A stretch of DNA of 64,000 nt from Candolleomyces eurysporus. Taxonomy: Eukaryota; Basidiomycota; Agaricomycetes; Agaricales; Psathyrellaceae. The DNA lies in contig JANBPK010001193.1 of assembly GCA_027579435.1 (NCBI GenBank), forward strand, positions 118,721 to 182,720, given 5' to 3'. Under the pieces are notes generated by a model. It worked only from the letters and a program-made list of their open reading frames with translations, was not told the origin of the DNA and ran no database searches. This document shows positions 2,380 through 47,660 of this stretch, piece by piece. The first letter of the stretch is position 1, and each line of letters begins with the position of its first letter. Made by a program: the position numbers and the translations under genes.

Positions 2380-3330
2380 GCAAACCATTAACACTCAGCG
2401 GAGCGACGAACGAACATACGAACGTCCTAAATTGGGTACTGCCTTGTTTGTGGTGGGATCATCTAACTAACTTTGAATTTGGCCTCCGGCGGCGGCATGC
2501 AAAGGCTAGCTTCAGGAACGGCTATCATTGCCACATCTTGTTGGGGAAAGAAACGAATGCTTGGCAGACTCGGGCGGACGGTATATATGCTGCCACTGAG
2601 CGGTAGGAACGAGCCAGGATTCACAACCGTTCTCTCAGCACTTCGGTTTTCTCTGTATCTCGAAGCCGAGTCTATCTACCTCTTTGCTACACTCAAATCA
2701 TCCAATAGCACCATGCAGTTCACCCGCATCGTCTTCGCCGGCGTCGTCGCTGTCTTTGCTGGTGCGTTCATCGTCTAATTTCCGCTTGAGTGGAGGTTGG
2801 CTAATTAAAGTACTTGGTGCAATTCATAGGCTTGTCGTTTGTGGTTGCATCGCCCGTCCCAGCACCAGAGCCCGCTGCGGAGGCCGCACCTCAGAGTTGC
2901 CAGATTCTGAACTCCTGCGGTTAGATGTGAGTTGACATACGCTCTTTGGGTGTAAGCACGAGCTCATGGACAAGCAGGCTTATTATCATCTCGCAGAGTT
3001 GACATCCAACATCAGTCTCAATTATCCTCCACAACATCGTTTAGATCTCCATTCTTCCGCCGCTTTCATCTTTCGTACATCTGGGTCTTTGTTCTGGGTT
3101 CGTTTGTCACCGTGTCGCCACTCTTTTGCATCGCAAATTCGCTCTCGAATTCATCAGCATCCTATCATTATCTTCCGTACCCCGGCCGTTATTTTGCTAT
3201 TCACACATCCGCTCGATCATTTGCATTCTCATGTGCTTCACTTGGTAGTTATCCATCTGCTCGCCCTATTTCTCACTTGACGGACTCTGCTCTGTCTCAT
3301 TCATTATCCAACGTAGACTGAGGGACTCTA
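2380..3330 (+). repeat. Dispersed repeat R, copy R1, with peptide gene copy 1
   Basis: This segment is recognisably similar to 32770-34195 (inverted), 40270-42120 and 45940-47660. Shared landmarks are a block CGAACGAACATACGAACGTC about 300 bp upstream of the peptide ATG, a TATATA box about 125 bp upstream, the peptide gene itself, and a 3' block around TTCCGTACCCCGGC. R1 is the shortest and most diverged copy and lacks the left part seen in R3 and R4. Confidence 0.75.
2713..2924 (+). CDS. Secreted peptide precursor, CQILNSCG family, copy 1
   Basis: Exons 2713-2761 and 2830-2924, with a phase-1 intron after codon 16, give 47 residues. The N-terminus is a signal peptide beginning MQFTRIVFAG with a hydrophobic core and a probable cut near VVA|SP. 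The pro-region is a row of X-Pro/X-Ala dipeptides, SP-VP-AP-EP-AA-EA-AP, followed by QS, and the C-terminus is CQILNSCG. There is no Kex2 dibasic site. This is the only copy in which the dipeptide before the octapeptide ends in Ser rather than Ala, which could slow or stop dipeptidyl-peptidase trimming there. A TATATA box lies near 2580. Secretion is well supported. Peptide release and disulfide closure between the two Cys are inference. I do not recognise the family. Confidence 0.85.
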
Positions 3331-5336
3331 GCTCTTATTCTGCATTTGTAGAGATCAGTGTAGCCACCTAGGAATACCATGGTTTCTCAGCAAATGGCAA
3401 GTCGTGTGTCGCGTAAAAACGGTATTAGCAGAGAATCTTTCTCCACATGGTATTGCCTGCATCAGAGGCCGCCGTGATTGAGCACTTCCGACGTCGCAGC
3501 GGCGCTGGCGCTGGACTGACTATTCGACACTCATTCTGCGCTCAATTTGAGATCTTGAACTGACGAAAAAAAAGACCGGATTCTCAGACGGACACTTTGC
3601 TGGTCTTAGTGAATGAGGATGACAGAGATTCCTAGGATTGTGCTTTTAGACGAAATATTGCTAGTAGCGACTACGAAACCCTGTAGAATCCGGTTCCCAG
3701 TACTTCTCGTTTGGAATTGACCAATCACTGGTCATTTGCTCAATTCTTTGGGGCGCGAATGAAAGAAAGGCGGACCTAGTTCAGTAGCTGGCATGATCAG
3801 TAAGGGAGCGTGGAACGACGAGTGCTCTAGCGATCGATATGTCATTCAGGGTTCCAAAAGAGGAGGTAGTAAGAACCCTCGCGGGCTCAATCCTGCGAGA
3901 GGTCACGCTAAGTTAGAAGATGAATGAATCGGTCAATCGAGATAAAAATGCACGGACTAAAAGGATGAAAGAATCGACAAGTAGGAAAGAAACAGGACGT
4001 GAAACAGCTCGGAATCAACCCAGGGAAGACTAACAAGCATCAAATACATCGGTAGAATGCAGATGCTTATGGTAAAGCTGCCGAGCCACCGGAAGTCATA
4101 TTGGCATTTCACTAGTGTTGTGAGGAATTTAGTGTGACGAGCTCCCTGAAGTTTCCTGTCCCGGTGCTCCTCTTGTCTCTTGAGAATATAGTGATGTGAG
4201 CAGAACTTGGACTCAAGATTACCCCAAACGACGAGGTAACATTGATACATAGTAAAAAGATGATAGAAGAAATTATCTGTATCCACGATCGACGGACTCA
4301 CCGAACGGGCGAAGAGTAATGATATAAGCTTGAATCTAATGGTACTGTTGGATTGGACGCAGCTGTACTTACTCCTCCTTTCAGCTCGCTCAACACTGAA
4401 CATCGGCCATAATGATATCACTAGATCACAAATTCTTGTGGACTGGTTAACATACATCGCTCTTTTTTTGTCGCACTTTATTCCGTTGCCTACTGATCTC
4501 GCCTGAAGCTCATGCTGGCGAGATTTAATATCACACAAGCCTCTTGACACTACAGGCAAAGATTTGTAAGGTCAGAGGTCAAATGTTCCTACGAATCAAC
4601 ACACAAATTTTATAGACAGGATTGAGTTCTTTTACTGACAGAATCCTTGCCCATATTCAAAAATTTGCCCACAATTCAGTCTTGGAGGAAATAGTAAGCA
4701 CATTTTTTGAATATTTTCCCAGACCAAATGCCTTTTCTTGGGAGGGCATTGGGCAGTTCTGGAACAAATAGATTCCCAAATTCAAAATAAGTCCAACTGG
4801 ATCCATTCCAAGCATAAATTGTTTGATATGTTTAAAATTTATGTAGTCATTCAGCTTTTTACAATATTGAATAAGTGATTCAAAATTTAGGAGACCATTT
4901 GTGGGAACAGTTGTTCCTCAGCCAAATTCATCCATGTCTGTAGTGTGATTTATCTCTAGCACGCTACATCCCCTTTTGAAGCGCTCAGTTTGATGGCTAT
5001 ATTGTACTCGCTTGTCCATCCATCGATACTAAGCAAAACGCATAGTTGAAACTTCTGACCGCCCATTACCCATCGAATACTCGCGATCAACTGAGTTATA
5101 TGCAGCACCCCACGCATCATTGTTTCTACCTGGTACCCCGTCGGAGTCACCCCTTGCAATTGACCGGAGGTGGAGTAACATCCGGGTCGAGAGAGTGGCA
5201 TGAAGAACGGTTTCAGGCCTGAGTATGAAGCGACTATAAGGGGTACCGCTTCAAACACTAGAGAAATGTTGGACGTACTGCGAAAGGATGAACTTATAAA
5301 TGGGTGGAACCTAACAATGCTCAGTGAGCCAGAGTC
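3331..5336. other. Intergenic; one unexplained 200-codon open frame
   Basis: No recognisable gene. A 200-codon frame on the minus strand (3957-4559) contains stretches such as LVKCQYDFRWLG and splice-like GTAAGT/GTGAGT sites. It could be fragments of a small intron-bearing gene, but I recognise no domain. AT-rich sequence follows from 4600 to 4950. Confidence 0.35.
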
Positions 5337-10100: not shown

Positions 10101-10438
10101 AGAAAGCAGCCAAGCAGTAAGTAAGTAAACAGAAACAAACTAATTGAGGATAGGAAAGGTGCCAGCACCGGGTCGCAATCATCTATCTTTCAGGATACTA
10201 GAGAATTTGACCGGATTCACTCAAAGTGGGCAATCCAGGTGAATAGCTACCGTATCTCACAACATGTTGCGCCAGTGTAACCTCCTAACCCAGTGCTCAG
10301 ACGTCTGCCAAGTCAAACAAATTCTGCATGGACAACGTCTACGACGATTAAGTACATTTCTTTGCGAACGGAAAAAACCCAACATGATGTAAATATCCTC
10401 AGATGTAAGCATATCCAAGGAGTCAGAGTGATGGTATA
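7141..10438. other. Intergenic; pyrimidine-rich promoter-like stretch near 8.45 kb
   Basis: No recognised protein. A C/T-rich tract at about 8420-8520, ending at an N (8521), precedes an ATG at 8587 with possible short spliced exons (MPGSRHRISP, then APENGPGHSRKSEE). This may be the start of an unknown gene, but no continuing exon could be followed. The remainder shows only short open frames. Confidence 0.3.
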
Positions 10439-11843
10439 CTACAACTGGCCGTAAGGAAGCAACTGAGTGCAACCCCCGAGAGAGATATTAACTGCTGTGT
10501 ACCAATACTGGAGGTTCTTGATCAGGTTTCTCTTCAAAATGCCGGTCGGGCTCGGATACAACTCCACCACGCTTTCCACCACACGGTCATACAAACGGCA
10601 CCGATGTTCAAAATCCGCCGAGGTGGGATCGACGACATAGTTATTAACTTTACCATCCGCGTTTCCACCAGGGAGCCAAGAGTGGGCCGCGATGACTTGG
10701 TCGACGCCTTGGTTGCTGGTAGGATGGTCGGACCTGTGGAAGTCGGGTGGGAACCTCATATCCCTGAAAAACGATGCCGCGTCCTCCATGGAGAGCTTGC
10801 GATCGGTGGTTACGCGTCCATCGACGAAGAAGTTGACGGGAAAGACGGTCTCACCGTACGCAGTGATGTAGCGAACGTTCTTGAATGAGAACTGGGGATT
10901 GGTAGCGATGGAGTCTTGAATACGTGAGTAGCGGAGCTCTCCTGCGACAGTGTAGTTATAGAAACCTCCGCCGTAACGGTTGCTAAAGTCGACAAGCTGA
11001 AGTATAATGCCACTTCGTCAGCATGTTGAAGCTTGGATAGTAGTGAGGGAGAACAAATGAACGAACCTTATCGAACAAAGTTTGGTTGAAGCTGTGGTTA
11101 TCCCCGAAGAACTCGTCCGCACGAGTCAAGCCAGCGTCACCTGGAAAACAAGGGTTGTTGGATCAACGAATTCCGAAAGCAGAATTATACACACCCTCAA
11201 AAGTTCCGTGCACGTTGAGACCACCGGCGTGGGCAGGAGCTGGAGGAGGAGGTCCAGTCTTTGGGGTCTTGCCACCGATGCTGAGCAGATCGGTGACCAG
11301 ATTCCCGTTCAAGAGGTGTCCCAGGTATGTAGCAAGGATTGCGGCAGTATTCTCCATGTTAAGCCCTAGAACGGAGCAAGATCGTCAGGAGTTCATACCA
11401 CGTTTTCGTCGTTTCATCGAGATACGTACCTTCTTGAATGGCGTTGATAATCTGGGTAGGAGTGGCGACGCCGTCACGGGGGAGATACTGAGCAAGCGCT
11501 GTTAGTCACTCTCGGAAAGTACATGAGTATGGTGAATTGAACTTACACCATGAGACGCAAGAGTGTTTAGTCCTGGGCACGGACCGCGAACATCACCTTT
11601 TCTCAACGGTTTCCATGGGTGATCACGGTCGTTGACCAACTTCAATCCCGTAAAGCTGGGAGGACCAGGTGGCGGAGGTGCATCGACCCCATATTCTGCT
11701 TGAGACACGGTTGAGTCCTCGACTCCCTGGCGTCTCAGCAGGTCCCCGTTGGGGACTTGGAAGTTAGGAAGCGCGAACGACGCGGTGAGGGTCGCGAGGG
11801 TAGATAGCAAGGCGGTGAGAAGAGCGAAAGGTTTGAGAACCAT
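10439..11843 (-). CDS. Unspecific peroxygenase (heme-thiolate peroxidase), secreted
   Basis: Five minus-strand exons (11843-11547, 11487-11430, 11365-11195, 11140-11067, 10996-10439) join in phase to 385 residues. The signal peptide MVLKPFALLTALLSTLATLTA is followed by LLRR, a possible Kex2 site. The heme-ligand motif PCPGLNTLASHG has its axial Cys at residue 89, E175-G-D fits the magnesium site, and GDNHSFN is conserved. R242 and E249 in VRYITAYGE match the acid-base Arg/Glu pair of long-type (group II, Agrocybe-like) enzymes. A C-terminal Cys pair (HRCRLYD and GGCTQLLPYG) fits the structural disulfide. Family knowledge: secreted peroxygenases (EC 1.11.2.1) use H2O2 to insert oxygen into aromatic and aliphatic compounds. 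All key residues are present, so it should be active. Confidence 0.93.
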
Positions 11844-13679
11844 CAGTGAGGTTTGTTGGATGAAGAGGCGTAGGCCCAGGTGTAAGGTGAGTCCTATACG
11901 ATTCATAGGCAAATACAGAGCTTTTATGTGTTGCTCACCATTTTCATAGATACGCATATGGGGCAGACTCGCATGGACTCTTGCCTTTGCTGTTCCGCGG
12001 CGCCGGATCGCCTGGAGCTACGGCCTTTCTCAACACCCATTTAGCTCCTACTCTGAGACCATGAACTTGTCACCAGGCACCCCAGTCGTAAGTATAAACA
12101 GTAGAATTGGCGACACAAACCGCATTTACAGGTGCTATTCTGGTCGATGAGATTCGGGCCATGAGTCCGCTTTACAAGCGCTTTCGAGAAGTCGGATAGC
12201 ACGAATCTGCCTTGCTTCTGCTCTCTTTCCCAGTCTCTAGCTTCAAAGCTGGTTCATGCCTTTGTCAGGAGGTCAGACAAATGAGTGCCACGGTGAAGTA
12301 GCTGATGCATATCATCATGGGCAAAGGACCAAGTTTCGTAACGTTAAAGATGGCAGGTCAAAGCAATACAATACAAACGGTACCGATTGTCCAATCATAC
12401 CGCAGGCATTTGGATGAGTAAGACATCAGCAGTAGGCACTGCCGTCGTCTGTACGTACGTCTAATCTGAACAAAAGCAGATGCTTTAGAATACCTTCCAC
12501 AGAGAAGCGCTAGCAAGTCTTATCAAGCAGGCTTCTGGTGAGCCGGATCCGAGCGCTGGCGAAGACCACAGATCCCAAATGATTCTCAGACGCGATCCGA
12601 CCCCAGCGAAGGGTAGGACCATTGAATTCAGCCTCAGCCTGAAGCATGGAAGCATCGAAGAGAAGCCTTCAGAAGCGGTCAATTACTTAATCGCGCTGAA
12701 TTGTGCATTCCGTTCAGAAAATACTGCCATTTTGACGCCCTTTTTCGCAGACCTTGTGCTTATTTCCCATGAACAGGATGAGAAGCAAGGAGTAAAGCCA
12801 GATGGAGGACGGCGGCCGAGGTCAAAGACTCCACTGGGTCGTTGTCGGGCGAAGCAAAATCGATCTAGGGAGGTAGCGTGGCTGAGGAGAGCCGAGGGTG
12901 CGAGCACAGCCAGAGAGAGGAGAGTCACTGAGGAACATCGTGCCCAGGGCAAAAAAAGAGAGGTTGGAGTTTCCAATCGACTGGAGACGTCGAGAATCTT
13001 GAATTCTGGAGGGGCCTCGAGTGAGGGGAGTATGCATTGTCAGTTTCGAGAGGCGACTGTTCAAATGAGTTTTCTTGCCTTATAAACGTGGGGTTCCCTC
13101 AGGCACCTTCAGCAGCGGTACACCATCTTCGTGATTGTAACGCTACCTCGTAGCTGAATCCAACGGATTTGCATCGTTGGCTTCGGGAGATTCGCTATTG
13201 AGAATACCGATGCTAGATTATTCGCATGGTGCTTCTCCGAGCCATTTTTGCAAACGGGTATTGTGGTAGGGAGAATCTACGTGTGTGGAGAGCCATGGCG
13301 CACAAATCTTGGGCTGGAATCAATTGCCAAACGAGCCGCAAGATATCCTGGCGTCTTTTTGGTGGGCATCGATGAACCAGTGACGCTTGAAATGTTCACT
13401 CAGATCAGACGCCGGCTACAGCAAACGACCACCACCGTGCTTGGAGTTTCACAGGCGCGTGATTTCAGGGCATATCAATAAGACCGATCAATTGAATGCA
13501 GAGAAAACTAGTATGGAGAACAGAGAGCATGAAATTGACGAACATCGAGCCTGACATCTGTTGACGATTGAACGATTCGTACATTTTGGGACCTGTGTGC
13601 TCTCGATGAGGCCGGTTTTTGTTAAGGATTCCAATTTGGATGATAGTTTCGAAGGAGTCAAATTTCAACCATAAGTCGA
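11844..13679. other. Intergenic; a 168-codon open frame without recognised domain
   Basis: Nothing is recognised. The plus frame 12579-13085 has an ATG and 168 codons, rich in Arg/Glu/Ser (for example ERRVTEEHRAQGKKREVG). Overlapping minus frames are similarly long, so chance GC-rich openness is likely. The plus frame 13248-13481 (77 codons) is also unassigned. Confidence 0.35.
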
Positions 13680-15400: not shown

Positions 15401-16105
15401 CTAACGCTGACCGCAGCTAGACTCCACTTAACAAAAGATCGCGTCGTCGCCTTCTAGCCTAATCCCCATAGACACTCCCTTCGGTACCGTGGTGAAGGCT
15501 ATGGCGAACTGAGGCAATTCTTGTCCACAGAGAACTAGACCAAGAAAGGGAGGCACATAAGTGGACAACATACTTTTTGCAAAACGGGCTTTGTGTTCAT
15601 AGAGAAATAATTTCAGCCGGCCTACAGAACCTACCCAGCTCACATTCTTTCTGATCACAAATGTGGTGCCTCAGACAAATTTCCCAAGGAATCAGAAAAC
15701 AACCAGCCCGCATGCGAGGAGGCAGATCAAGGAGGGTGATCTCCACCACAATCTATTGTGGTTGTCGCCACCCGAAAACAGGTTCCCCTTTAGTGATGTT
15801 TTTATTCAGTCTTACGCCCGCCCATGCCCACGCTCTCGCCTATTACACGGCTGCCAATTCAATGGCTTCCGATTTGATCAGAGAGCTTGGAGTCGAGATC
15901 CGAAATTTTCTGAGCGTCTATCACTCCGCACAGGAAAAACGAGACGGCTGGAATGTTCCAAACATTTGACTGCTCGCTAACCTCTCGCTCAGCTCGGATC
16001 CCTCAGCCGGCAGGTTTTTCACAACCAAAATCTCTCGCCACCGGATAGCCCAAATGCTCTTGTAAACCGCCGCCAGCACGAGGCTCTTAGACACGTCATC
16101 TCGGC
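15401..16105. other. Upstream region of the G-alpha gene
   Basis: No gene seen. It lies between the left repeat and the G-alpha start codon and must hold that gene's promoter. Two overlapping plus-strand open frames at 15661-15980 show no domain. Confidence 0.4.
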
Positions 16106-17979
16106 ATGGCAGAAGGCATGCGTCGCGACGACCCCTTTGCCATTTTCCTGAAGCCACCCGCGAACGAGACTTCTACTGAACGTGCTACACGTGAAGCTCG
16201 TGCAGCCAAGGCCAAGAAGAGGAGCGATGCGATTGACGAGGAGTTGAGAAAGGAACGAAAGAGGCTCACGAGAACTCAGAAAGGCCTACTAAAAGTGGTG
16301 TTGGTTGGGGACTCCGGAAGCGGTGCGTCGTCCTTCATTCCGATATCCAGTGTTCCCCGAACTACATCTTTTTGCAGGGAGGGAAAAGATGGTCAAGCGT
16401 GAGTACGCTTTGGATAAATCCTAGTCATCCCGACCGACGTCAGCCCTGCAGAGCTGCGAATAAGATACGCTCGAGAAGAATGGGATGCGGAGCTGGCAAG
16501 GTGGAAATCCGTTATCCAGCTCAGGATTCTCGGGGGAATCGTGACNAATGCTTGATGCATTGCAGTCTGAGCTGGACGGTGAAGCCCTCCCCGAAACCTC
16601 GGAAGACACTCACTCGAACGGCGCGACCGAGTATCTTTTCGATACGTCATCCTGTCCAGACGCAGGCCTTTTAGGTCAACTTGAGCCATCGCCCTCCGGA
16701 GATCAAGACACTGATACTTCAGTTGACGACGATGGTAGCGTTGAGGACAAACACTTGCGTCTGTTGACCCGACTGGCTCCCATTAGGTATGCAGAAGAGA
16801 ACCTACGTAAATGGCTAGACACCTCGATCGAGCCAAACTCGACCTTTCAAGCTGGGAAGGAGAGTCAAGAAGCGACGGGTGTGATCACTCGCTGTCAAGA
16901 ACATATCAAAATCCTGTGGAGGGACGAGACGGTGAAGGCAGTGTTGAAAAAGAGAAGGATCAAGTTGGAGAAATCGGCCCAGTTGTACGTTCCTTCCTCT
17001 TCTCTTCGAGAATGGTACTATGGCCCATGCTCATTGGCATGTCTCACAGTTTCTTAGAAGAAATCGGACGGATCATCTCTCGTGGCTACGCACCTTCCGA
17101 CGAAGACGTCGCGCTTGTTTGCTCGAGAACTGGTATTCAAGAGTACCGGATAAAACTCGAGCAAACGGTAAAGGCTAACGGGAGTAGGTCCATGTGTGTG
17201 TATGATATTGGGGACTGGAGAATGGCACAAAAAACATGGATGCCGTACTTTGAAGGGGTAGACGCAGTTATGTTTTGTAAGCGAATCTTCGCCGTCTCTT
17301 TCCCTGGTTCTCTCATCGTTAATTTGAATCGTATAGTCGTTTGTGAGTACGCTCTAAATATCTTGAATTCGTGATAACTAACGCTGAGCTGCAGCTCTCT
17401 CAAGCTTTGACGAGCATTCGCCGGAGGACCCGGAGACCAACCAACTGGAGAATTCGTTGCTCTTCTGGGCCTCAATCTGCGGGTCCTGGTCACTCNAAAA
17501 AATCTGGCTTCGTACTTTTTCTGACCAATTGTGATGTGCTCCGACGCAAGCTGAAGAGGGGTTCGCAGATCAGAGACTATGTCTCAAGCTTTGGAAGTAG
17601 ACCTAACGACCCACAAACGGTTGCAAAATGTAAGCTCATGCTTGTCGCAGTCGCCTCAACTCCACTGAGCTCGAAGTCTAGATTTTAAAGATAAATTTAG
17701 GTCGATGGCGAAGCAAGAATTAGGCGAAGGACGTTCTCCCTATATCTACTTGGTTTCCACCGTGGTTTGTGTCATTCCTTGCGACCGTTCTCCTCCTTCC
17801 GTATCTCACTTCCCTCAACTCTGAATTCGTTTTGCCGCAGGATATGGAAACTGCTGAGATCGCTATCTTGGCTGGTCCGTCATATTCTCTTTGTATCTGT
17901 CTACCTTTTGTTGACGATTCGTTTCCCAGTCAAGGACATTCTGTTGCGCGAGAATATCAAAAGAACCACCCTCGTGTAG
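16106..17979 (+). CDS. G-protein alpha subunit, divergent, with degenerate nucleotide-binding motifs
   Basis: Nine exons join in phase: 16106-16322, 16378-16398, 16452-16984, 17050-17276, micro-exon 17337-17342, 17395-17629, 17691-17764, 17841-17874 and 17930-17979. Ns at 16546 and 17496 must be omitted, giving 464 residues. Family hallmarks are the N-terminal DPFAIFLKPP, a long helical insert (EEWDAELARWKSVIQL, APIRYAEENLRKWL), GIQEYRIKLE, SSFGSRPNDPQTVAK and a C-terminal LLRENIKRTTLV. The motifs deviate: the P-loop GxGESGKST reads GDSGSGREK (68-76; K to R, S to E), DVGG reads DIGD (309-312), and NKCD reads TNCD (378-381). No Gly2 for myristoylation. Nucleotide binding is probably weak or altered. 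Agaricomycetes carry many diverged G-alpha paralogs, and this is one of them. Confidence 0.88.
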
Positions 17980-20689: not shown

Positions 20690-22315
20690 AACCCTTGTTC
20701 ATGAAGAAAGGGGTGTTCTTGTAGGACGCAGAGCTAAGAGCAGTCGTGTGGCCGTGCTTCTTGTGATTGCGTATTTTCACTAATTGACGGACCTTTGGCA
20801 CCAAATGGGATAATTCAGGAAGGGATCGCGCGGTACTGCAAACGGTGATGATCGACCCGGCCACTGGGAGTTTTAGGGTCGGGTCAAATTGGATTGTTGT
20901 CACTTCCTACGAGCGATTGAACCCGGGGATCTGATCAAGGCTATCTGCGCGTCTGCCGTCGCCCATGGTGCAGCCGACGAAGGCAATCCATTGGATCTAA
21001 TGTCATCGTCCGATCCATGGGTCTTGTTACTTTAAGTTACGCAGACAGAGCTGTTATATTCTTATTCTAACCGGGAAAGTGCAAGCAAGTAAGCACAAAA
21101 GCCAAGCTGTTAGTCCCAGGCAGCAAACTAAAGTGCAACCCTGCGTGGTATATTATAAGTTACGTGCTAATCTCTGGTACGGTGCCCTGCACCGCTCGGC
21201 CATCTCTCACTGCGTTCAAAGGTATCTACGTCCCCAGGTCGGCCCAGATGATCTCCCTCTACCTCTGCTGGTTTTGAAGAAGAATCCTGCCCCAGTTAAT
21301 CAGGACACTCGGCCGAGGCCGCGCATATCAGACAAGGGTAAAGGTTGCTGGTTGATCAAGTTAAGATTTTGTATCGTATCATCCGGCGGATTGCCACCTG
21401 CTCTCCCTGGGGTGCTCCAATCTATTGGACCGCTTGATCCTGAGACGCTGACTACGTAGCCAACCATGAGGGAAACGGCTGGAGTGAATTCGGATACCGT
21501 GTACTCACAGCAAGTTAAATAGTTCCACAGATCTGACCAGCACCCCCACTCGCAGCAGGCACAACAGCAATCACCTAGTGGCCGTTGATAGAGTTAACCA
21601 ACTGCGACCGAAAATTTTCCATGGAATATGGAAAGTGTACTCACAGCACCCACAGTCACAGCAGCTACATTCACAATCACATCCACCACAATCACATCCA
21701 CAATCACAACAATCACACATCTCGACTTGTGCGCCGTATTAGTTTGTAATAGTGAAGTTAGACCTCGAGGTAGGTCGTTCGAGTTTCGAGGTGTGAAAAT
21801 ATGCAACAACAAGATAAAGCAGATCCTTTGTACCTAGTCCCGGAAGTAACCGCAACCGAACAAAAGGAGTCTGAAACATGCACGGCTACGTATACCCGGG
21901 TGGATCATGAGAATTGTGAGACACCGCACGTAATGGCGACTCGCCGCCCCTCCTTGACTGCCTGAGGATGCTTGATGAACAGGGCGTTAGATTCGTGATT
22001 TGTGGTTCGCTGTTTGGGATACCGGAACATCTATCGTCCTCACTGGTCAGTCTCTAGTGCTCATGAGGACAGGACATGGCCCCTCGACTCCGTGATATCC
22101 GGAAGGTAGCCTTTGACACCAACCATAATTCACTCTGTCATTCATGGAGCATAGGAGAGCATACACACACTCGCTTACCCCTTTGGTCAATGGCACCAGT
22201 CGGGTTCAAGTCAGAAACCACGTTGTCATGGAAATAACCCGGTCAAAATTTGCCGCAATATCGTTCATTGTGTAATTGACGTTTAGTGTCGTTTTCTCTC
22301 CAATATATCTTTAGA
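20690..22315 (-). repeat. Tandem duplication unit A
   Basis: About 1.65 kb, collinear with unit B (22720-24450). Shared anchors: GATCGCGCGGTACTGCAAA / GATTGCGCGGTACTGCAAA, GTCAAATTGGATTGTTGTCAC, the complete three-exon cysteine-rich gene, TGTTTGGGATAC, and ATTGACGTTT(A/G)GTGTCGTTTT at the right edge. Just past the right edge (about 22316-22347) is a short stretch matching the 3' coding end of the NACHT gene at 24745-24776, so the original unit probably lay next to that gene. Confidence 0.75.
21300..21720 (-). CDS. Cysteine-rich metallothionein-like protein, tandem copy A
   Basis: Minus-strand exons 21720-21645, 21574-21509 and 21451-21300 join in phase to 97 residues. Exon 1 codes almost only for Cys, Asp and Gly in CDCG-type units (starts MCDCCDCGCDCGGCDC). 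Exon 2 begins CDCCCACCEWGCWSDLWNY. Together 21 of the first 47 residues are Cys. The C-terminal third is ordinary and ends INQQPLPLSDMRGLGRVS. There is no signal peptide, so it is probably cytosolic. Dense CxC and CC pairs are typical of metal-thiolate proteins, so copper or zinc binding or detoxification is an inference; no named family is recognised. The 15-nt periodicity of exon 1 suggests growth by slippage. All splice sites are shared with copy B. Confidence 0.6.
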
Positions 22316-22719
22316 GACAGGGATTTCGAGTCAATTCCAGTGTGGGGAGTGTACCGACTCTGAGCGGAGTATCGGTTCACTTGCCCTATCCAGTTCGCTT
22401 AGCTCATTCCCTTGCCCGTTCGGGATCCTGAATTTATGCGGACGTTTTTTTTTCTCTTGTGGATTGTTCTCGACTGTTTTTAGGATATTGCGGTTGCATA
22501 GCGACGTCAGATTGGACCCACGCTTTGTTTGTACACCAGTCGGGTACACACCAACCGGGATACCTTATACCCTGCTCTTTCTGATTCATTCATTAATTCG
22601 GACTCGAGAAGTCATATCTCGCATTCGCATTGGCTTCGTTACATTCCTGCTCGCTTCTCGTTGTCACCAATCTCGTCTAGAGTTATAATTACTATCAATA
22701 CACTCGTTCCACCCCTTGT

Positions 22720-24450
22720 TGAGGGAGAAGAGTGTGCCTTTGCAGAACGCAAAACTAAGAGTAGTATGGCGCCGTGTGACTGTGTAATTGTGTATGTGGA
22801 CTAATTGATGGACCTTTGCTCTGTTGTGATTGGTGTAGCCGCAAGGCAGCAAACCGGATGATTCGGGAGGGGATTGCGCGGTACTGCAAAAAGTGATGAT
22901 CGGCCCAACCACTGGGAGTTTTGAAGTCAAGTCAAATTGGATTGTTGTCACTGCCTCTGAGCGGTTGAACCAGGGATCTGACTGACGCTATTCGCCTATT
23001 TGCCTTCGCCCCATGGTGCAGCCAGCAAAGGTAATATATTGGATCTAATGACATCGTCTGAATCATGGGTCGTGTTACTTTAAATCGTACAGAAACAGAG
23101 CGCCGTTACATTTGTATTCTGACTAGGAAAGTACAAGAAAGCAAACACAGAAGCCCAGGTATCCAACCGAAGGGCAACCCTTTGTGGTATATTATAAGTT
23201 ACGTGCTGATCTCTGGCCTGGCGCCCCGGACCGCTCAGCTATCTCTCACTGCGGTCAAAGGTATCCACGTTCAGGTCGGCCCAGATGATTTCCTTCCACC
23301 TCTGTTGGTTTTCAAAAAGGATCCTCCCCAAGTTGATCAGGATTCTCGGCCAAGGCTGGGCATGTCGCAGAACGATAAAGGTTGCTGGTTGATCAATTTA
23401 ACATTCTCTGAACCTTGTATCGTGTTTTTCGGTGGATTGGCGTCTGCCTTTCCTGCCGAGGTGCCCCAATCTCCTGAGCCACTTGATAGATGTGGGACTG
23501 AGCCGAAGACTACGACGACAACCATGAGGGAACGGCTGGAGCGAATTCAGGCAACGTGTACTCACAGTCAGTGAAATAGTTCCACAGATCTGACCAGCAC
23601 TCCCACTCGCAGCAGGCACAACAGCAATCACCTAGTGGAGATTAATAGCGTCAACTAACTGCAACTAAAAGTCTTCTATGGAAGGCGTACTCACAGCATC
23701 CACAATCACACCCACCACAATCACATCCACCACAGTCACATCCATCACACATCTCGACTTGTGTGCCGTATTGGTTTTGTAAAAGGTGAAGTTAGACCTC
23801 GCGGTAGGTCGTTCGAATTTCGAGGTGTGAAGATATGCAACACCAAGATAAAGTGGATCTTTTGTACCTAGGCCGGGCAGTAACCGCAACCGAACCAAAG
23901 GAGCCTGAAACGTGCGCAGCTACTCGGGTGGATCATGAACTGACATCGCTACTCTCTCCAACAAAAACGAGCGGAGCATGAGAATTGTGAGACACCGCAC
24001 TTCGCAAATGACAAAAGGCTGTGGATCCGCAGATTGACGTGGCGACTCGCCACCGCTCCCTGGCTCCCTGAGGATGCTTGGACAGGGCGCTAGATTCGTG
24101 ATTCGCAGTTTGCTGTTTGGGATACTGCATCATCTATCGTCCTCGCTGGTCAGTCTGTAGTGTTCATTAGGACAGGACATGGCTCCTCGACTCCGTGATG
24201 TCCGGAAAGTACCCTGACATTGACACCAACGATAATTCACTCTGTCATTCATGGAGCACAGGAGAGCACACACACACACACAAACACACTTGACAATAGC
24301 ACCGCTCGGGTTCGAAGCACAAACCAGTGTCATGAAAATACGGCGGTCAAAATTTGCCGCAGCATACGTTGCAGGTAAACGCTGTTTCCTTGAACATCGT
24401 CCATGATGTGATTGACGTTTGGTGTCGTTTTTCTCTCCAATTTATCTGCG
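22720..24450 (-). repeat. Tandem duplication unit B
   Basis: Direct copy of unit A in the same orientation, separated from it by about 400 bp. It carries the second cysteine-rich gene. Its right end lies about 280 bp from the NACHT stop codon. It has a CA-rich microsatellite-like tract near 24270 that is shorter in unit A (near 22160). Confidence 0.75.
23337..23752 (-). CDS. Cysteine-rich metallothionein-like protein, tandem copy B
   Basis: Minus-strand exons 23752-23695, 23631-23566 and 23509-23337 join in phase to 98 residues. Exon 1 is a near-perfect CDCGG repeat (MCDGCDCGGCDCGGCDCGC), 18 nt shorter than in copy A. Exon 2 (CDCCCACCEWECWSDLWNY) differs from copy A at only a few positions. 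The C-terminal part keeps INQQPLSF and LGRES. It has 15 Cys in the first 41 residues and no signal peptide. That both copies keep an open frame, three exons and the same intron phases, while the repeat number in exon 1 differs, argues that these are real genes. The metal-binding role is inferred from composition only. Confidence 0.6.
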
Positions 24451-24727: not shown

Positions 24728-27359
24728 TTATAAGCCAGCAAGTAGAGATTGGGATTTTGAGTCAATTCCAGTGTCACTTCCGGTTTCGCCGACGTCAACC
24801 TCGGGCAAGTCTTGGAATGGATGATCTTCTCTCTCTAGAATTGGATTCCTGTCATGAAGCATTGACTTGTAAATATACCCCCTCAGGTCCCGTGGAGCAT
24901 ATTGCTGGAATATCTCCATGAATAAGGCGATCCCCCTTGGTCCAGGACTTCGCAGCTCTTGAACAAGCTTGTTTTCTTTCCAATCGGCTCGACTGACGAC
25001 TTCCTTCAAATAATCCACACAGTCGCAAGCAATCAACCAGACAGCCCTTGGCGAGCCGTCAGGGAGCTCTGTTGATTGGAGAAGGGAAATGAATGCTGCC
25101 TCGACTGAGGATTTTGTATGGGAGGTGGCAGTGTGAATGATGGAACCACACTCGGTGAATTGCATGGGTTGGATCAGGAAGTTGGAAGGTTCGGGAGATG
25201 AGAACAAACGCCAGACGGGTGAATGGTACCGGTTCCGCTTCTGCGAGTCGTCAATGCTAAGGTAAGATCGGATGAGGCAGGCCGAGAGGTCGAGAGCAAG
25301 CATCTTCTCAATCATGCAAATATGGGCTGCTCTTGAAATTTGAAATAGTCCGAGACTCAGCCTACTCCAGAGGGGGCACCAATTATTCAGGGAAAACAGG
25401 ATGTGTTCTTCCAGCTGCTCGCTGATGGTATTCATGGTGATGGAGGTCATGCAGTTGAGCATGTTTGACAGTAGTCGCTCCTGTCCTCTGTTGAGGTCCA
25501 CAGAAAACTCCATAGAGATTGGAGGTGTCGATAGAAATTCCGTGAACGAGGAATGGAAGAAAAGGCTGTACATGGGTTCATTCATGCTCCCGATCCGAAG
25601 GACCGCATGCAAGGGTCGGAGGGCCTTGATTCCGCTGCCAAGAGATCGGCTTGATAGACGATCGAGAAGTTCAAGAACCTTCCCACAAGGCAATCTCCTG
25701 ACAATGTTCCGTATCCTGAATGCTATCGCATCCTCCAGCACCTCCAACATCAGGGTCCGATTTCTCTCAGGACAAGATCGCATAATCTGCCGGTAGAGCT
25801 CGTGAAGGGATAATAATGGTGTAGAGTGTGAGACAGGTGAACTCTTTGCAGAGTTATTGACGATGTCCTTCAAGAGCTGCCGTGGGTCGCCGTATGGATC
25901 GTCGATATGACGAATAACAGTGGCTGCGTAGAGTATGTGACCATCACTCTCCGATACTAGCCAAGCTTCCTCTGGCCACTCTTCCTCAACCCCTTCAAGA
26001 CCATGAGACGCTGCGATGCGCGAGAGCTCCACCCTCACATACCGTTTGACATCGGACATGTGGTCCCCAACCTCCCGAAGATCGAGAGGCTCCACGATCT
26101 CACGGAAATGGCTGGATTCTAAATGCCGCTTGATCCATGCCTCAGGCCTGCTGAGAATGAGGAAGGAGAGAGGAAGATGATGGGATTGGAGGCAATGGAT
26201 GAGGTTGAGCACTCGGATCTGAACGATCTCCTGCAGCTCGGCGTACTGCTTCTGCACGCGAGACTCGCGATCCGAGTTGATACATTCGTCAATCCCGTCG
26301 ACAATAATGACTCGGTTGGGCATAGCGTTGAAATCGGGGAGGCATTTGAAAGACTGAACTATCAGCTCTACAAGCTGAATCTCAAGCGCCATCTTCACGA
26401 TACCAGGCTTGGATTTGACTACGGCCTCGATGCGGGGGCGGAGCTCTGGGATTGACTCTGCCAGTTGGTACGCGAGGGTGATTATAAAACGGGAGGGGGA
26501 GTTGCGTTCCGGCGAGGTCCTCCAGAAGAAGAAAGCTGCGCCAACGGGGTTGAAACCGAGCTCATTCTTCATTGCTTTCAGCTTCTCTGTAACAGTTCCG
26601 GCAACTGCCGTTTTGCCATAACCTGCTGGTGCCTGCACCCACATAATATGTTTCTTCCCTCTATTGTTGTCCAGATACCAGCCAACGATCCTAGTAACGA
26701 CGACCTCACGAGTCCCAGGGTGGCACAATGGAGGTGGGTATCGTTCGTCAGATTCATGCATCGCGCCCATGGCGGCATGTTGATACAGAAGCTGGAGACC
26801 TGGTAGCATGAGTGAGTTCCCTGTTGATCGGGGCCATATTCACTACCACAGAGTGCATGGGCACTTACCGTCAAGCGTGGAAATATGTGTATCGTTGTAA
26901 ACGTCGCCAGAGATGGGCCCGTTGAAAATGGGACCATTATTGGACGGCTGATAGTACAGGAGCGGTCGCTCAACTTGGCTTTGACAGTCTAGCGTTCGCG
27001 ATCGAGTTAGAACACAATCAAAGTTCGGATCTTGACAGTGTTACATACGATGAATGTGACTGTAGTACTCCTCATTCGCTCTATGGCTGGCTCGTGCGAC
27101 TGATGGGCAATGATGTTGAAAGGGTGGGGTTATCGTGGCTTCAGGTGTCCAAATAGAATCATTAAGAGCTGATACTTCGGAGCCAGCACCTGTCTGAGCC
27201 AGCATAAGGACTTCGTTAGGCAGATTCACGGAACCGTTGCAGGCATCAAGGGCCAAGTCTATCGGACCTCTAGTGTGTCAGTTTTTTCTCCACTCTGAGA
27301 TAAATCTGGACCTCACCATCTTCTCCTAACTGACTCGACTTCCTTCTTGTGCCGAGCAT
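24728..27359 (-). CDS. NACHT-domain STAND NTPase (NLR-like)
   Basis: Minus-strand exons 27359-27317, 27258-27049, 26988-26869 and 26799-24728 join in phase to 814 residues, starting MLGTRRKSSQLGED. An N-terminal stretch GPIFNGPISGDVYNDT precedes the NTPase, as often seen in agaric NACHT proteins. The P-loop reads APAGYGKTA (about 181-189), followed by AAFFFWR, a Walker-B VIIVDGIDEC (about 288-297) and a sensor-like LSFLILSRPEAWI. The remaining C-terminal half is helical with no WD40, ankyrin or TPR repeats that I can see, so it lacks a classic recognition array. Family knowledge: such proteins act as regulated switches in fungal incompatibility and innate-immunity-like responses. The ligand is unknown. 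Confidence 0.88.
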
Positions 27360-31940: not shown

Positions 31941-32068
31941 CCTCCCTCCCCCGCTCGTCACTAGTTCACTCCTTCCTCTGTCAGCCCCGATTGCACTTCC
32001 CCTTTGTCCCCCAGCACAGCCGGGCCCTTCACTCCTCCAGCGTTCTTCTCTCCAGATCGCTCCTTGCC

Positions 32069-32769: not shown

Positions 32770-34195
32770 TTAGGCACGGAAGAAAACACAGGAATATACT
32801 TCGGTTGAACTTAGACTGAGCAATGTGCTGCTGTCCGACAGACGATAAAGAGGGCTATCAAAATATATTGCTAGCAGAGTGAGTAGATATAAATGAGTAA
32901 GACAATGAGCGAAATACACAATGACGGCCGGGTTACGGAAGATAATGATAGCAACAACGAATAGCGAACCAAGAAAAAGGATTGGCAACGTGACAAAAAA
33001 CCCAAAAATGGAACCCGAGAAGTACCAGTGACGGAAGAATGGCGATCTAAAGAATGGTGCGGAAGATATATTGAGGTGTTAGGTTTCGACTCTATCGAGT
33101 GACTCTAGGCCTGCTTTCATGAGCTCGTGTGCAAACCAAAAAAAGAGCAGAAAAGACTCACGTTTAGCCGCAGGAGTTCAAGATCTGGCAAGCCTGGGGT
33201 TGAGCCTTTGCAACAGGGGCTGGTGCCGGCATAGGCGACGCAATGACGAACGACGAGCCTATCGATTGTATGAAATTAGTTCATTGACCAAGTTCCACTC
33301 TCAAAGACAAAGGGCTTACCAGCGAAGACAGCGAGGACAGCGGCAAAGACGATGCGGGTGAACTGCATGGTTTGTGAAAAAATTCAAGGTAGTGAGGTGG
33401 AGTGGCAGAGGCTCGATTTCGAGATATAGAGACTGTAGATGTTTTCTGAGAGGGTAGAGGACGGTTGTTAATCCTGGTTCCTCTCTCAAACCCAGAATAT
33501 ATACCCTCTTCCTGTATTCGCCAACGATCATCATTCTTTCCCCGAAAAGGTGTGGCAACAAAAGCTGTTCCTGATACTAACGTTTCCCATCCCGCCGCCG
33601 ATGGCAAAATTCAAAGTTAATTAAATTGAGTCCCACTGCTCGGTCCCTGCTCCTAGAACAAGGCAGTACCCAATTTGGGACGTTCGTATATTCGTTCGTC
33701 CATCCACTGAATGTTGGTGGTCGGGACGGAATTAACCAAGCCTACTATTCATCGTGATTGCAACTACTTAGCGACTAGACAGCAAGGATTTAATACATTG
33801 AATGAATAGGTATTCAAGCAGGCGAGACATGGGGGTATCCCTAAGAAATGGATATCTATGGAAGTGCGCTTGTGCATCCTCCCAAACCCCTGCATCATCC
33901 CCTTGGTAAACCGGAGTCAAGTGCTGGCTCTCATTTGTTATTGAACTGGATCGATCTCACGTACATCCATGCGGCGGTGACAGCCATATTAACGATATTT
34001 AGAATAGCTCATCTTTGAGCTTTTGGGGGAGGGAAGCATAAGCCTCGTCGGTTTTTGGATAGAAATGCGCTTTCTTATGAACGATACTCGACGCAATCTC
34101 ACTCGAGCCGAGGGTACGTTGACTGAGCGGTCTACGCAGATGTAATCTCGAATCCACCTTCCACTTCTCTGAGTGTCACTTCTCATACAGCATGT
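32770..34195 (-). repeat. Dispersed repeat R, copy R2 (inverted), with peptide gene copy 2
   Basis: Reverse-complement copy of 40755-42120 and 46240-47650. Shared anchors read on the minus strand: CACTCAGAGAAGTGG, a TTTTGGATGGAAAT-like block, GTCTAGTCGCTAAGTA, CGAACGAATATACGAACGTC, a TATATTCTGGG promoter, the peptide gene and the 3' block with CCGGCCGTCATTGTG. Confidence 0.75.
33164..33368 (-). CDS. Secreted peptide precursor, CQILNSCG family, copy 2
   Basis: Minus-strand exons 33368-33320 and 33258-33164 give 47 residues with the same phase-1 intron after codon 16. Signal peptide MQFTRIVFAAVLAVFAG. The pro-region has eight X-Pro/X-Ala dipeptides, SP-MP-AP-AP-VA-KA-QP-QA, then CQILNSCG and a stop. 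Compared with copies 3 and 4 the pro-region changes at several residues (IP to MP, VP to AP, EA to KA) but every change leaves Pro or Ala in the second position. This is what dipeptidyl-aminopeptidase trimming would require. The promoter has a TATATTCTGGG element near 33495 (minus strand). Confidence 0.88.
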
Positions 34196-39090: not shown

Positions 39091-39099
39091 CTTATATGT

Positions 39100-40270: not shown

Positions 40271-42120
40271 TAGATCATCTGGCTGACGCTGGATGGACAT
40301 CAGTCAGTAACGATAGTGGTGGGAGCTCAGTGAATGGCCAATGCGAAATGTAGCGATCTAAGGAACAATGCTTTAGGAGGCTCCAAATCGCTTTGACTGT
40401 CAGAAAAGACTTCACAATGTGAAAAGGGAGCGCGGTTTGCGAAGCAGCCACCAATTTTATGTTGGGGAGTAGCCTTCGAGAGCGAAGACTGACGCAAGTA
40501 ACGAACGTATACATATTTTACGTTGCTCTCTTGCTTTGGGCTTAGGTCGCATGTTTAACTCTAAACTTCAATTTGACTGGCTTATATCACCACCAACCGT
40601 CATTCAGGTCCCAAGGCAAGGTTATATAGGTGATAGCTTAACCACTGTAGTGCGGTACCATGGATCAGAGCCATGGAGTTCGTTACAGTTTCCGACCTGT
40701 TGAAACCATTTCGTAATGTACTCTGCCCCTCGGCAAAGCGACCCCATTCGTGTGCTGTATGAGAAGTGACACTCAGAGAAGCGAAAGGCGGGTTCGGAAT
40801 TCCATCTGCGTAGACTGCTGAGTCAACTCACCCTCGGCTCGAGTGAGCCTCCGTCGAGTATAGTTTATAAGAGAGCACATTTCCATCCAAAAATCGACGA
40901 TGCCTATGCTTACTTCTTCCAAAAGCTGAAAGATCAGGNTTTTTTTTGAATATCTTGAACTTGGCTGTCACCGCCACATGTATGAGATCGATACAATTCA
41001 ATTAGTAATAAAAGCTAGTACTTGATTCCGATTGACGAAGGCTCGGGAGGGGACGGTGAAGAGGCTCAGGAGGATTTAACAAGCGTGCTTCCATAGATAT
41101 GCATCTCTCAGGCATGCTCTCATGTCTCGCCTGCATCGCCTATTCATTCAATGTACTAAATCCTTGCTGTCTAGTCGCTAAGTAATTGCAATCATGATGG
41201 ATAGTGAGCTTGTTTAATTCCTTCCCAACCACCATGGGCGAACGAACATACGAACGTCCCAAATCGGCTACTGCCTTGTTCGAGGAGCAGGGACCGAAGA
41301 GTTCATTCAATTTACTTGACTTTGAATTTCGCCATCAGCAGCGAGATGGGAAGGTCAACGTCAGGAACAGCTTTTGTTGCCACACCTTTTTGGGGAAATG
41401 AAAAGAATCCTCGGCAAATACAGGAAGAGGGTATATATTCTGGGTTTGAGAGACGAACCAGGATCACCAACCACACCAACCAACCTCTACTCTCTCGAAA
41501 CGCATCTACAGTCTCTATCCTGAAGCCGAGCCTCTCTGCCACTCCACTCCGCTACCTTAAATCCTTTCAAACACTATGCAGCTCACCCGCATTGTCTTTG
41601 CTGTTGTCCTCGCTGTCTTTTCTGGTACGCCCTTCTTCCAATTTGCCTTTGAGCGTGGAACCTGGTCAATCGACTGATTTCGTACAATTTGTAGGCTCAT
41701 CGTTTGTTATTGCGTCGCCTATCCCTGCACCAGTGCCTGTTGCCGAGGCCCAACCCCAGGCTTGCCAGATTTTGAACTCCTGCGGCTAAATGTGAGTTTT
41801 GTCCGGTCTTTCTTGGTCTGCGCAAGAACTCATGAAAGCAGATTTGGAGTCACTGAAATGGAGTCAGAACCTATCTTCCGCACCATTTTCTAGATTGCCA
41901 TTCTTCTGTCACTGCTCTCTTTCGTACTTCTCAGGGTTTATTTCTGGTTTAGTTGTCACGTCGCCATCATATCCTTATTTTCCGTACCCCGGCTATCATT
42001 GTATTATTCGCTCAATTCCTTACTCATTCGTTACCTACTTGCTCTACTGGCTAAGAATCTATTTAGTAACTCTCTTGCCACCTTTCAGACACCAGCATAT
42101 GGCTCAGTCTGAGTAGTAAA
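40270..42120 (+). repeat. Dispersed repeat R, copy R3, with peptide gene copy 3
   Basis: Closest to R4 (45940-47660). Anchors: CATCTGGCTGACGCTGGATG / CATCTGGCTGATGCTGGATG at the left edge, AAATCGACGATGCCTATG / AAATCGAAGATGCCTATG, ACGAACGTCCCAAATCGG, GAGGAGCAGGGACCGA(A/G)GAG, the peptide gene, and TTCCGTACCCCGGC. An N lies at 40939 before a T run. Confidence 0.8.
41576..41789 (+). CDS. Secreted peptide precursor, CQILNSCG family, copy 3
   Basis: Exons 41576-41624 and 41695-41789 give 47 residues with the family intron after codon 16. Signal peptide MQLTRIVFAVVLAVFSGSSF. The pro-region is an unbroken series SP-IP-AP-VP-VA-EA-QP-QA, followed by CQILNSCG. In this copy and in copies 2 and 4 every dipeptide from the predicted signal cut to the first Cys ends in Pro or Ala. 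That is the substrate rule of Ste13/DPAP-type dipeptidyl peptidases, as in the EAEA leader of yeast alpha-factor. The TATATTCTGGGTTTGAGAG promoter element lies near 41433. Relative to copy 1, octapeptide codons differ only at synonymous positions. Confidence 0.9.
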
Positions 42121-44200: not shown

Positions 44201-44449
44201 AGATATGAGCAGACGACTCACCATGTGGATCGGACCCGTTTACCAGTAGCGAACGCAGACAGCATGTACGACGTTGCAGGCAAGTAGTCAAGGCCGTTCG
44301 AGAGTACGATCTGCGTCAACTGCTTCCTGCTATTGAACGCTGGAGAGAGGTAGTAGAATTGAGGGTTCTGATCGTCTGGCAGCTGGGGCTTAGGGAAAGC
44401 AACANGGGGGGTTGGCGAGGAGCGACGATGAACGCCCAGGTGTCGCCAA

Positions 44450-45760: not shown

Positions 45761-45939
45761 TCTCCCCAGCTTCCCCCCGACTTCTTATGCTCCTGCAGAC
45801 AAATTTGACACCTCCATTTCTCCTCACGATTGACGTACCTTTAATGTATGTCATTCGTGCCGCGGGCGATAAAGGTGACAATATTCAAATGAGACGCATT
45901 AGCAAACCTTCCTTCCTCCTGTCCTCAACGTGATGTGGT

Positions 45940-47660
45940 GATAAATGTAGACCATCTGGCTGATGCTGGATGGACATCAGTCAGTAACAATCTTGGTGGA
46001 AGCCGAGTGAACGACCGATGCGAAATGTAGAAAGTAAGTATTAAGAATGCTTCAGGAGACCTCGAAATTGCTTTGAATTTCAGAAGAGTCTTCGAGATGT
46101 GACAAGGGAGCGTGAGTCAACCAGTGCAGTGCGGTGCCATGATTTAGAGCCATGGAGTCCGGCGTACAGTTCCCGATCTAACTTGTTGAAGCCATTCCGT
46201 AATGTCCTCTGCTCTTCAGCAAAGCGACCCTGTTCGCGTGCTGTACGAGAAGTGACATTCAGAGGTGGAAGGCGGATTCGGGACTCCATCTGCATAGAAT
46301 CATCGGTCACCTCACCCTCGACTCGAGTGAGCTTGCCTTGAGTATCGTTCATAAGACAGCGCATTTCCATCCAAAAATCGAAGATGCCTATGTTTACCTC
46401 GTCCAAAAGCTGAAAGATCAGGAATTATCAATATCTTTAATCTGGCTGTCATCGCCGCATGTATGTACGTGAGATTGATCCTATTTAGTAGGCAATAAGA
46501 GCTTGTACTTGAATCCGATTGACCAATGCTCCGTAGGGCATGATGCAGGGGTTCGGGAGGATGTAACAAGCGCGCTTCCATAGATATCCACCCCTTAGGG
46601 ATACTCTCATGTTTCGCCTTAAATACCTATTCATTCAACGCATTAGATCCCTACTGTCTAGTCGCTAAGTAGTCGCAATCATGATGCATAGTGCGTTTGG
46701 TGAATTCCTTCCCGACCACCAACATTCAGGATGGGCGAACGAACATACGAACGTCCCAAATCGGTTACTGCCTTGTTCGAGGAGCAGGGACCGAGGAGTT
46801 CATTCAATTTAATTAACTATGAATTTTGTCATCGGCGGCGGTATGGAAAAGGTTAACGTCAGTCACAGCTTTCGTTGCCACACCTTTTCGGGGAAATGAA
46901 AACGATTCTTGGCAAATACAGGAAGAGGGTATATATTCTGGGTCTGAGAGACGAACCAGGATCAACAACCAGCCTCTACCCTCTCGAAACTCATCTCAAG
47001 TCTCTATATCTTGAAGCTGAGCCTCTCTGCCACACCACTACCTTGAATCCTCTCAAGCACCATGGAGTTCACCCGCATCGTGTTCGCTGCTGTCCTCGCT
47101 GTCTTCGCTGGTACGCGCTTTGTCCAATTTGTCTTTGAGCATGGAACTTGGTCAATGGACTGATTTCGTTCAATTGATAGGCTCCCAGTTTGTCATTGCG
47201 TCGCCCATCCCTGCCCCAGTGCCTGTTGCAGAGGCTCAACCCCAGGCTTGCCAGATTTTGAACTCTTGCGGCTAAACGTGAGTTTTTGGCTGCTCTTTTT
47301 CGGTGTGCGCACGAATTCATGGAAGCAGACTTAGAGTCACTCGATAGAGTCGGAACCTACTCAATCTGTCTTCCACAGCATCCTTTAGATCGACATTCCT
47401 CTGTCGCCCGTATCCTTCGTACTTCTCGGGTTCTATTTTTGGGTTATTTGTCACATTGCCACTCCTTTTTCCTGGTTCGCTACTCGTCGTCATTCTATCA
47501 TTATCTTCCGTACCCCGGCCGTCATTGTATCATTCGCTCGCTGTCTTGCTCATTTCTTACCTATTCGCTCCACTAGCGAACAATCTATTTTGATCGCTCT
47601 CTTTGTCGTCTTTCGGACACCGGCACATTGCTCAGTCTAAGTACAACCAAAGTAGATTCC
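45940..47660 (+). repeat. Dispersed repeat R, copy R4, with peptide gene copy 4
   Basis: Collinear with R3 over about 1.7 kb and, inverted, with R2. Same anchors as R3, including the conserved upstream ACGAACGTCCCAAATCGG and the 3' TTCCGTACCCCGGCCGTCAT. Confidence 0.8.
47062..47275 (+). CDS. Secreted peptide precursor, CQILNSCG family, copy 4
   Basis: Exons 47062-47110 and 47181-47275 give 47 residues. Signal peptide MEFTRIVFAAVLAVFAGSQF. The pro-region SP-IP-AP-VP-VA-EA-QP-QA is identical to copy 3, then CQILNSCG. Within the octapeptide the only change from copy 3 is a synonymous Ser codon (TCC to TCT). Promoter element TATATTCTGGGTCTGAGAG near 46933. It is the third copy with a gene X block just upstream on the same strand. 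Confidence 0.9.

Follow-up and report, generated by a model that had tools for sequence, protein, structure and literature searches.

In ascomycetes, alpha-pheromones such as yeast MF-alpha and the two-cysteine type of Sordariomycetes are produced from precursors carrying a signal peptide, in which XA/XP dipeptides, removed by STE13, lie immediately before a short core (PMC6339444). Precursors with a STE13 signature are also found in basidiomycetes, with no function assigned to them, and their processed products have been detected in Pleurotus (PMC6339444, PMC9769878). Here we describe a family of small two-exon genes of the mushroom Candolleomyces eurysporus, present in a 64,000-nt stretch (the window, positions 118721-182720 of contig JANBPK010001193.1, named C198 in the C-plus-number contig labels of this analysis) and, with 13 different sequences in all, elsewhere in the genome. 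On the sequence evidence the family is genuine and under selection, its design follows a clear logic of processing, and its products are probably secreted precursors that are trimmed by dipeptides to release a two-cysteine peptide.

The mushroom precursors share with the ascomycete alpha-pheromones a putative signal peptide, the STE13 dipeptides preceding a short core and the presence of two core cysteines; they differ in having a single C-terminal core, no repeats, no dibasic KEX2 site and no C-terminal Trp. Alpha-pheromone forms beginning with QWC reportedly occur in Neurospora and Magnaporthe. In the Fusarium graminearum pheromone, WCTWKGQPCW, six residues separate the cysteines, while five are found in the mushroom core (PMC7329813). 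Common traits, namely the STE13 dipeptides and the predicted short secreted peptides, are also shared with the STE13-signature KEX2-processed repeat proteins (KEPs) of mushrooms (PMC9769878, PMC6339444), KEPs being defined by repeats that alternate with KEX2 sites, three or more of them in PMC7329392. Membership in this group was rejected, since each mushroom precursor contains one core without repeats (13/13) and none has a dibasic site (KR, KK, RK or RR; 0/13).

A long X-Pro/X-Ala pro-region directly following the signal peptide is also a feature of promelittin and similar animal DPP-IV precursors; this likeness concerns an unrelated organism and product, and no homology is claimed. The a-type pheromones of basidiomycetes are encoded by small multi-copy genes as well, with a CaaX ending and no known signal peptide. 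They are described as cytoplasmic, prenylated lipopeptides, whereas the mushroom family has a putative signal peptide and cysteines at positions -2 and -8. An a-type identity was discarded, because the tails read ..LNSC[GHIT] with no CaaX in 13/13 sequences, a signal peptide is recognized by eye and no STE3 match lies on the contigs concerned.

Pfam gave no match above the gathering score for the 12 of 13 sequences scanned (all but C297_21); the best one, DUF4516 (17.6 bits with a cut-off of 27), covers residues 2-21, which correspond to the signal peptide. No Rfam match was obtained for the window, and no relative among PDB sequences, where a single chance-level match to a flagellar protein (E 7.9) was found. 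The 1 and 22 pattern stretches in viral and prokaryote contigs, respectively, included no relative, a result of little weight since these collections are not intended for fungi. Literature searches confined to a library of open-access papers showed no description of the family, and one for two-cysteine peptide hormones in Agaricomycetes listed papers on plants. It is best filed among the STE13-processed fungal peptide precursors, as a variant with a single core, no dibasic KEX2 site and no repeats.

Gene structure

Four members of the family, W1 to W4, are located in the window:

2713..2924, plus strand: W1 gene, exon 1 2713-2761, intron 2762-2829 (68 nt), exon 2 2830-2924; MQFTRIVFAGVVAVFAGLSFVVASPVPAPEPAAEAAPQSCQILNSCG
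2850..2897, plus strand: W1 pro-region, SP VP AP EP AA EA AP QS (16 aa)
2898..2921, plus strand: W1 core, CQILNSCG
33164..33368, minus strand: W2 gene, exon 1 33368-33320, intron 33319-33259 (61 nt), exon 2 33258-33164; MQFTRIVFAAVLAVFAGSSFVIASPMPAPAPVAKAQPQACQILNSCG
33191..33238, minus strand: W2 pro-region, SP MP AP AP VA KA QP QA
33167..33190, minus strand: W2 core, CQILNSCG
41576..41789, plus strand: W3 gene, exon 1 41576-41624, intron 41625-41694 (70 nt), exon 2 41695-41789; MQLTRIVFAVVLAVFSGSSFVIASPIPAPVPVAEAQPQACQILNSCG
41715..41762, plus strand: W3 pro-region, SP IP AP VP VA EA QP QA
41763..41786, plus strand: W3 core, CQILNSCG
47062..47275, plus strand: W4 gene, exon 1 47062-47110, intron 47111-47180 (70 nt), exon 2 47181-47275; MEFTRIVFAAVLAVFAGSQFVIASPIPAPVPVAEAQPQACQILNSCG
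47201..47248, plus strand: W4 pro-region, SP IP AP VP VA EA QP QA
47249..47272, plus strand: W4 core, CQILNSCG

An earlier note, made from this DNA alone, had reported these four genes, and its coordinates, strands, exon and protein lengths, phase-1 introns and CQILNSCG ends all proved exact. Each gene has exons of 49 and 95 nt, which are spliced to encode 47 residues, and a phase-1 intron bounded by GT and AG. Enumeration of splice models revealed alternative combinations in some copies, including W1 and W4, and only the 49/95 model fits every one of the ten 47-residue sequences.

The motif GTGAGT is present 2 nt past the stop codon in all four genes (2927 plus, 33161 minus, 41792 plus and 47278 plus), and a GT occupies the same position in 10 of the 13 family sequences; a conserved intron in the 3' untranslated region is possible. 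Upstream, a TATATATT box is found at 46930 for W4 and at 41432 for W3, about 130-145 nt from the gene, and TATA-like boxes also precede the dispersed copies (defined below).

The family across the genome

The genome search covered 65.85 Mb in 1296 contigs, and the copy counts are lower bounds. The 5.8S/ITS stretch and the gene content would suit an Agaricales mushroom, perhaps one near Agaricaceae. A protein search with exon 2 matched 15 places, 13 of them at E <= 5.3e-10; the two weak matches, on C1218 (E 0.107) and C1229 (E 0.176), were accepted as members because of their gene structure and of a second query, the C202 sequence, which found C1218 at E 1.9e-10 and C1229 at E 0.018. A nucleotide pattern describing the tail (C-x-x-[L/F]-N-[S-like]-C-x followed by TAA, TAG, TGA or TGG) gave 27 matches, compared with 3 for a reversed control pattern. 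Family members account for 16 of the 27, one of which, at C202:133508, is new beyond the exon-2 search, and the remaining 11 were left out. The surroundings were read for C555 alone: its tail fits the pattern, but they resemble, on visual inspection, part of a retroelement polyprotein, and this candidate was rejected.

The family is larger than the four copies of the earlier note: at least 16 intact copies are present, corresponding to 13 different sequences and 3 presumed alleles, and all 16 display the two-exon, phase-1 open model and a hydrophobic N-terminus. Eight of the 13 sequences are distributed over about 162 kb of C198, with one each on C297, C1193, C1229, C1218 and C202; the eight on C198 and the one on C297 are here named the array, and the last four the dispersed copies.

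C301 shares 93-97% identity with window positions 41787-64000, and some stretches of C297 share 97-99.5% with stretches of C198. Owing to this near-identity they were taken as the other haplotype, and three copies were counted as alleles; two of these have identical coding sequences, while the allele of W4, on C301, carries two synonymous changes in the coding sequence and differs twice in the intron, in one case through an N in C301. The C297 sequence of the array may be an additional paralogue or the allele of a copy past the end of C198. Both haplotypes seem to be partly present in the assembly, the identities ranging from 93 to 99.5%. C297 also brings together stretches that C198 keeps about 60 kb from each other, and one of these is inverted, which suggests either a misjoin or that the haplotypes are rearranged relative to each other.

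In a tree built from the 13 sequences, using 150 nt upstream together with the gene, a fully supported split sets C1218 and C202 apart from the remaining eleven; seven of the ten inner branches are open, and C1229 forms a long branch of unsure placement.

Precursor anatomy

In order, the precursors contain a putative signal peptide, recognized by eye as a hydrophobic N-terminus ending in VIA|S-like residues, a pro-region of the SP-xP... kind and a single core. The start of the pro-region was set at the SP[IVM]P motif, judged visually to be the probable site of signal-peptide cleavage, and the register was anchored on the core. Its length is even in 13/13 sequences, being 16 residues in ten of them and 20, 22 and 22 in the others. 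Pro or Ala occupies the second position of 101 of the 112 in-register dipeptides, compared with 25 of 112 first positions. Eleven pairs depart from this rule: the final one of five sequences (QS in W1 and C1193, QT in C1229, QG in C1218 and C202) and six internal ones, of which AE and AR belong to C1218 and EH, VR, GE and AR to C202. Basic residues are absent from the pro-region in 10 of the 13; W2 has one Lys, C1218 an Arg and C202 two Arg and a His. In both C1218 and C202 an Arg precedes EA-NP-QG or EA-DP-QG, a disposition resembling the yeast one, where a basic cut is followed by EA pairs.

Genome-wide, the core reads C-[QR]-[IM]-L-N-S-C-x, with x being G in nine sequences, I in two, H in one and T in one. 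The invariance of CQILNSCG proposed in the earlier note thus stands for the nine array sequences and does not extend to the dispersed ones, which end in CQILNSCH, CQMLNSCI, CRMLNSCT and CRMLNSCI; Ile is replaced by Met in three of them, two of which also have Arg in place of Gln. A Gln is found at position -2 in 13/13 sequences, followed at -1 by A, S, T or G, so that the constant stretch is Q-x-C-[QR]-[IM]-L-N-S-C-x and conservation may extend over a unit of ten residues.

Selection

The proportions of synonymous and nonsynonymous differences (pS and pN) were summed over pairs of the nine array sequences. The core has a pS of 0.398 and a pN of 0; the values are 0.282 and 0.079 for the pro-region (pN/pS 0.28) and 0.286 and 0.105 for the signal (pN/pS 0.37). 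When C1193 is added, the pN of the core becomes 0.021, because of its final His. Six of the eight core codons vary within the array, all synonymously; codons that vary in amino acid number 0/8 in the core and 21/39 outside it (Fisher p 0.0056, indicative only, since the rows are related). In the array pro-region the amino acid varies at one of eight second positions of the dipeptides (A/S), compared with five of eight first positions.

Regional identity was determined on eight array sequences, W1 being left out. It is 0.94 for core and stop, 0.87-0.88 for the remaining exons and 0.82 for the intron. Upstream, the values are 0.74 from -50 to -1, 0.81-0.85 from -450 to -51 and 0.65-0.75 beyond -450; downstream, they are 0.70-0.81 from +1 to +200 and 0.53-0.58 further out. 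The duplicated unit deduced from this profile spans about 1 kb and comprises the gene with its promoter; since the copies resemble each other in the intron as much as in the promoter, the similarity of the latter was not counted as promoter constraint.

Proposed processing and role

Removal of the signal peptide would occur at about VIA|SP, after which a STE13/DPP-IV-type dipeptidyl aminopeptidase would trim the X-Pro/X-Ala pro-region by two residues per step, stopping at Q-x-C; for most copies, this would not need a KEX2 cut. The predicted product is Q-[ASTG]-C-[QR]-[IM]-L-N-S-C-x, whose N-terminal Gln may be converted to pyroglutamate and whose two cysteines may close a disulfide ring. The nine array sequences, all encoding one core, would provide dosage, and the four dispersed paralogues would provide variants. 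Cleavage, ring, pyroglutamate, secretion and signalling are all inferred from the precursors.

The genome contains one DPPIV_N match, at C1250:61414-62715 (E 1.5e-82), a putative STE13, and three P_proprotein matches, which are candidate kexins. The earlier note had considered the conserved tail behind a variable pro-region as the design of a processed secreted peptide, a view supported by the in-register X-Pro/X-Ala pairs, the even lengths in 13/13, the selection on the core and the DPPIV_N match; the function of signal or effector that the note attached to it is a reasonable possibility.

Where the residue at -1 is neither Pro nor Ala, as in 5/13 sequences, a strict STE13 rule would stop before the Gln. 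Coprinopsis KEPs expressed in Pichia yielded peptides with N-terminal Gln, partly as pyro-Gln, which the authors took as end protection (PMC9769878). This stop and the Gln ends of the Coprinopsis peptides favour a ten-residue product. In the 8/13 sequences whose last pair is Q-A, this pair may also be clipped, and an octapeptide is a possible product there. As for the octapeptide that the earlier note regarded as the conserved and released unit, the core is indeed kept, while the constant Gln at -2 makes a decapeptide possible; the mass near 834.34 Da given for it agrees with the monoisotopic value of 834.3364 computed for disulfide-closed CQILNSCG. For the predicted decapeptides, likewise disulfide-closed, the computed values are 1033.4321 for QACQILNSCG, 1016.4055 for pyroGlu-ACQILNSCG and 1032.4005 for pyroGlu-SCQILNSCG, the W1 form.

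The likeness to alpha-pheromones and the frozen core suggest a signalling role; tentatively, the most likely one would be that of an extracellular alpha-pheromone-like signal between hyphae.

Several observations weigh against trimming and signalling as outlined here. The signal peptide was assigned by eye, 5/13 sequences have something other than X-Pro/X-Ala as the pair adjoining the core, and in C1218 and C202 the pairs that obey the rule are, with the last one included, 7/10 and 6/11; these two dispersed copies may need a cut at Arg. The aligned stretch of the DPPIV_N match holds one TAG and one TAA, which could be introns read through. STE3 matches are present on C215, C63, C912, C1217, C372 and C1141, and none lies on the seven contigs with peptide genes; STE2 (PF02116) had no match in the genome, in a search run without a positive control. 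Finally, all copies come from one genome, so that much of their agreement reflects shared descent.

Genomic neighbourhood

The region around the array is a mosaic in which duplicated families are interspersed. Other features of the window are:

10278-11863, minus strand: member of the expanded Peroxidase_2 (peroxygenase-like) gene set of C198
about 15857-17784, plus strand: G-alpha-like copy, with PF00503 matches at C198:135765-135998 and 136217-136351 and no peptide gene adjoining
20797-24361: direct repeat with 79-84% identity over about 1.1 kb plus 0.33 kb
24731-26839, minus strand: open frame of about 700 aa, with the look of a NACHT-type P-loop protein (by eye)

Head-to-head pairs of a G-alpha-like gene and an array copy are found at C198:3.8 kb, C198:73 kb and C297:21 kb, as well as at the allele of C198:3.8 kb on C297, with 1.6-2.5 kb to the peptide start codon, and blastn detected a fragment of the G-alpha block beside C198:97 kb. 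Exon-level matches to G-alpha number at least 93, on many contigs of the genome, and the reading frames of the duplicated copies examined look atypical or ragged by eye. Among the matches listed, G-alpha occurs on one of the four dispersed contigs, C1193, about 8.5 kb from the peptide gene, and perhaps belongs there to another subfamily, judging from its exon pattern. A common function of peptide and G-alpha-like genes is a possibility; a functional link was set aside as a conclusion, given that block duplication explains the linkage in the array and that, among the matches listed, a single dispersed contig out of four carries G-alpha. Two UstYa (PF11807) matches are located at C202:120797-123287, 10-13 kb from the peptide gene, out of 17 genome-wide.

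Alternative explanations

In a more elaborate form of the signalling proposal, which we consider possible but unlikely, the two-cysteine ring peptides, released through dipeptide trimming alone, would act as a mushroom hormone independent of the mating locus, sensed by a G protein-coupled receptor, with dosage from the array, variants in the last residue from the dispersed copies and the G-alpha-like genes beside several array copies taking part in the response.

It is likewise doubtful that the peptide, processed in the same way, serves defence or interaction and acts on competitors or hosts. The amplification of nine array sequences with an identical core suggests a demand for quantity, and an effector role was kept open by the KEP authors (PMC6339444); however, the core is short, it lacks charged residues and His in 10/13 sequences (Arg is present in two and His in one), and in the array it is frozen (pN 0), without the diversification expected of arms-race peptides.

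A precursor that stays whole, giving a mature peptide of 24 or slightly more residues with the tail kept for folding or binding, appears improbable. A signal peptide and selection would equally suit a short intact protein, and the pro-region is itself conserved, as its pN/pS indicates; however, the two-residue Pro/Ala periodicity, in register with the core and retained although the length varies by 4-6 residues, would be hard to account for if dipeptides are not removed.

Still less credit is given to a ribosomally synthesized and post-translationally modified peptide (RiPP), in which neighbouring enzymes would cross-link or oxidize the core. Peroxidase_2 genes crowd the array contig and the UstYa pair lies near the C202 copy, but Peroxidase_2 matches, considered as tailoring enzymes and rejected, occur on many contigs and on none of the four dispersed ones (C1193, C1218, C1229 and C202). 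UstYa (DUF3328) is found on one of these four and not on C198, C297 or C301, that is, on one of seven peptide contigs, and Tyr, which the literature names for ustiloxin-type cyclization, is absent from the core; a dikaritin-type RiPP was rejected on these grounds.

Lastly, a chance or pseudogene series, for which the location in a highly duplicated region might speak, has a negligible probability, since 16/16 copies are open and spliceable and the core changes of the array are synonymous only, while the G-alpha-like copies of the same blocks look ragged by eye.

Significance

The surveys reported in PMC6339444, PMC7329392 and PMC9769878 search for KEX2 sites and repeats; the one in PMC7329392, with its threshold of three repeats separated by KEX2 sites, could not detect a single-core family. 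The mushroom family has neither KEX2 sites nor repeats and yet displays a STE13 signature and a strongly conserved core, so that a single-core, STE13-only class of precursors may be missed by such surveys. The authors of PMC6339444 raise the question of a hormone function outside mating for alpha-type peptides of basidiomycetes; if it is true that the producing fungus senses the peptide, the family described here would provide a concrete ligand with which to address it.

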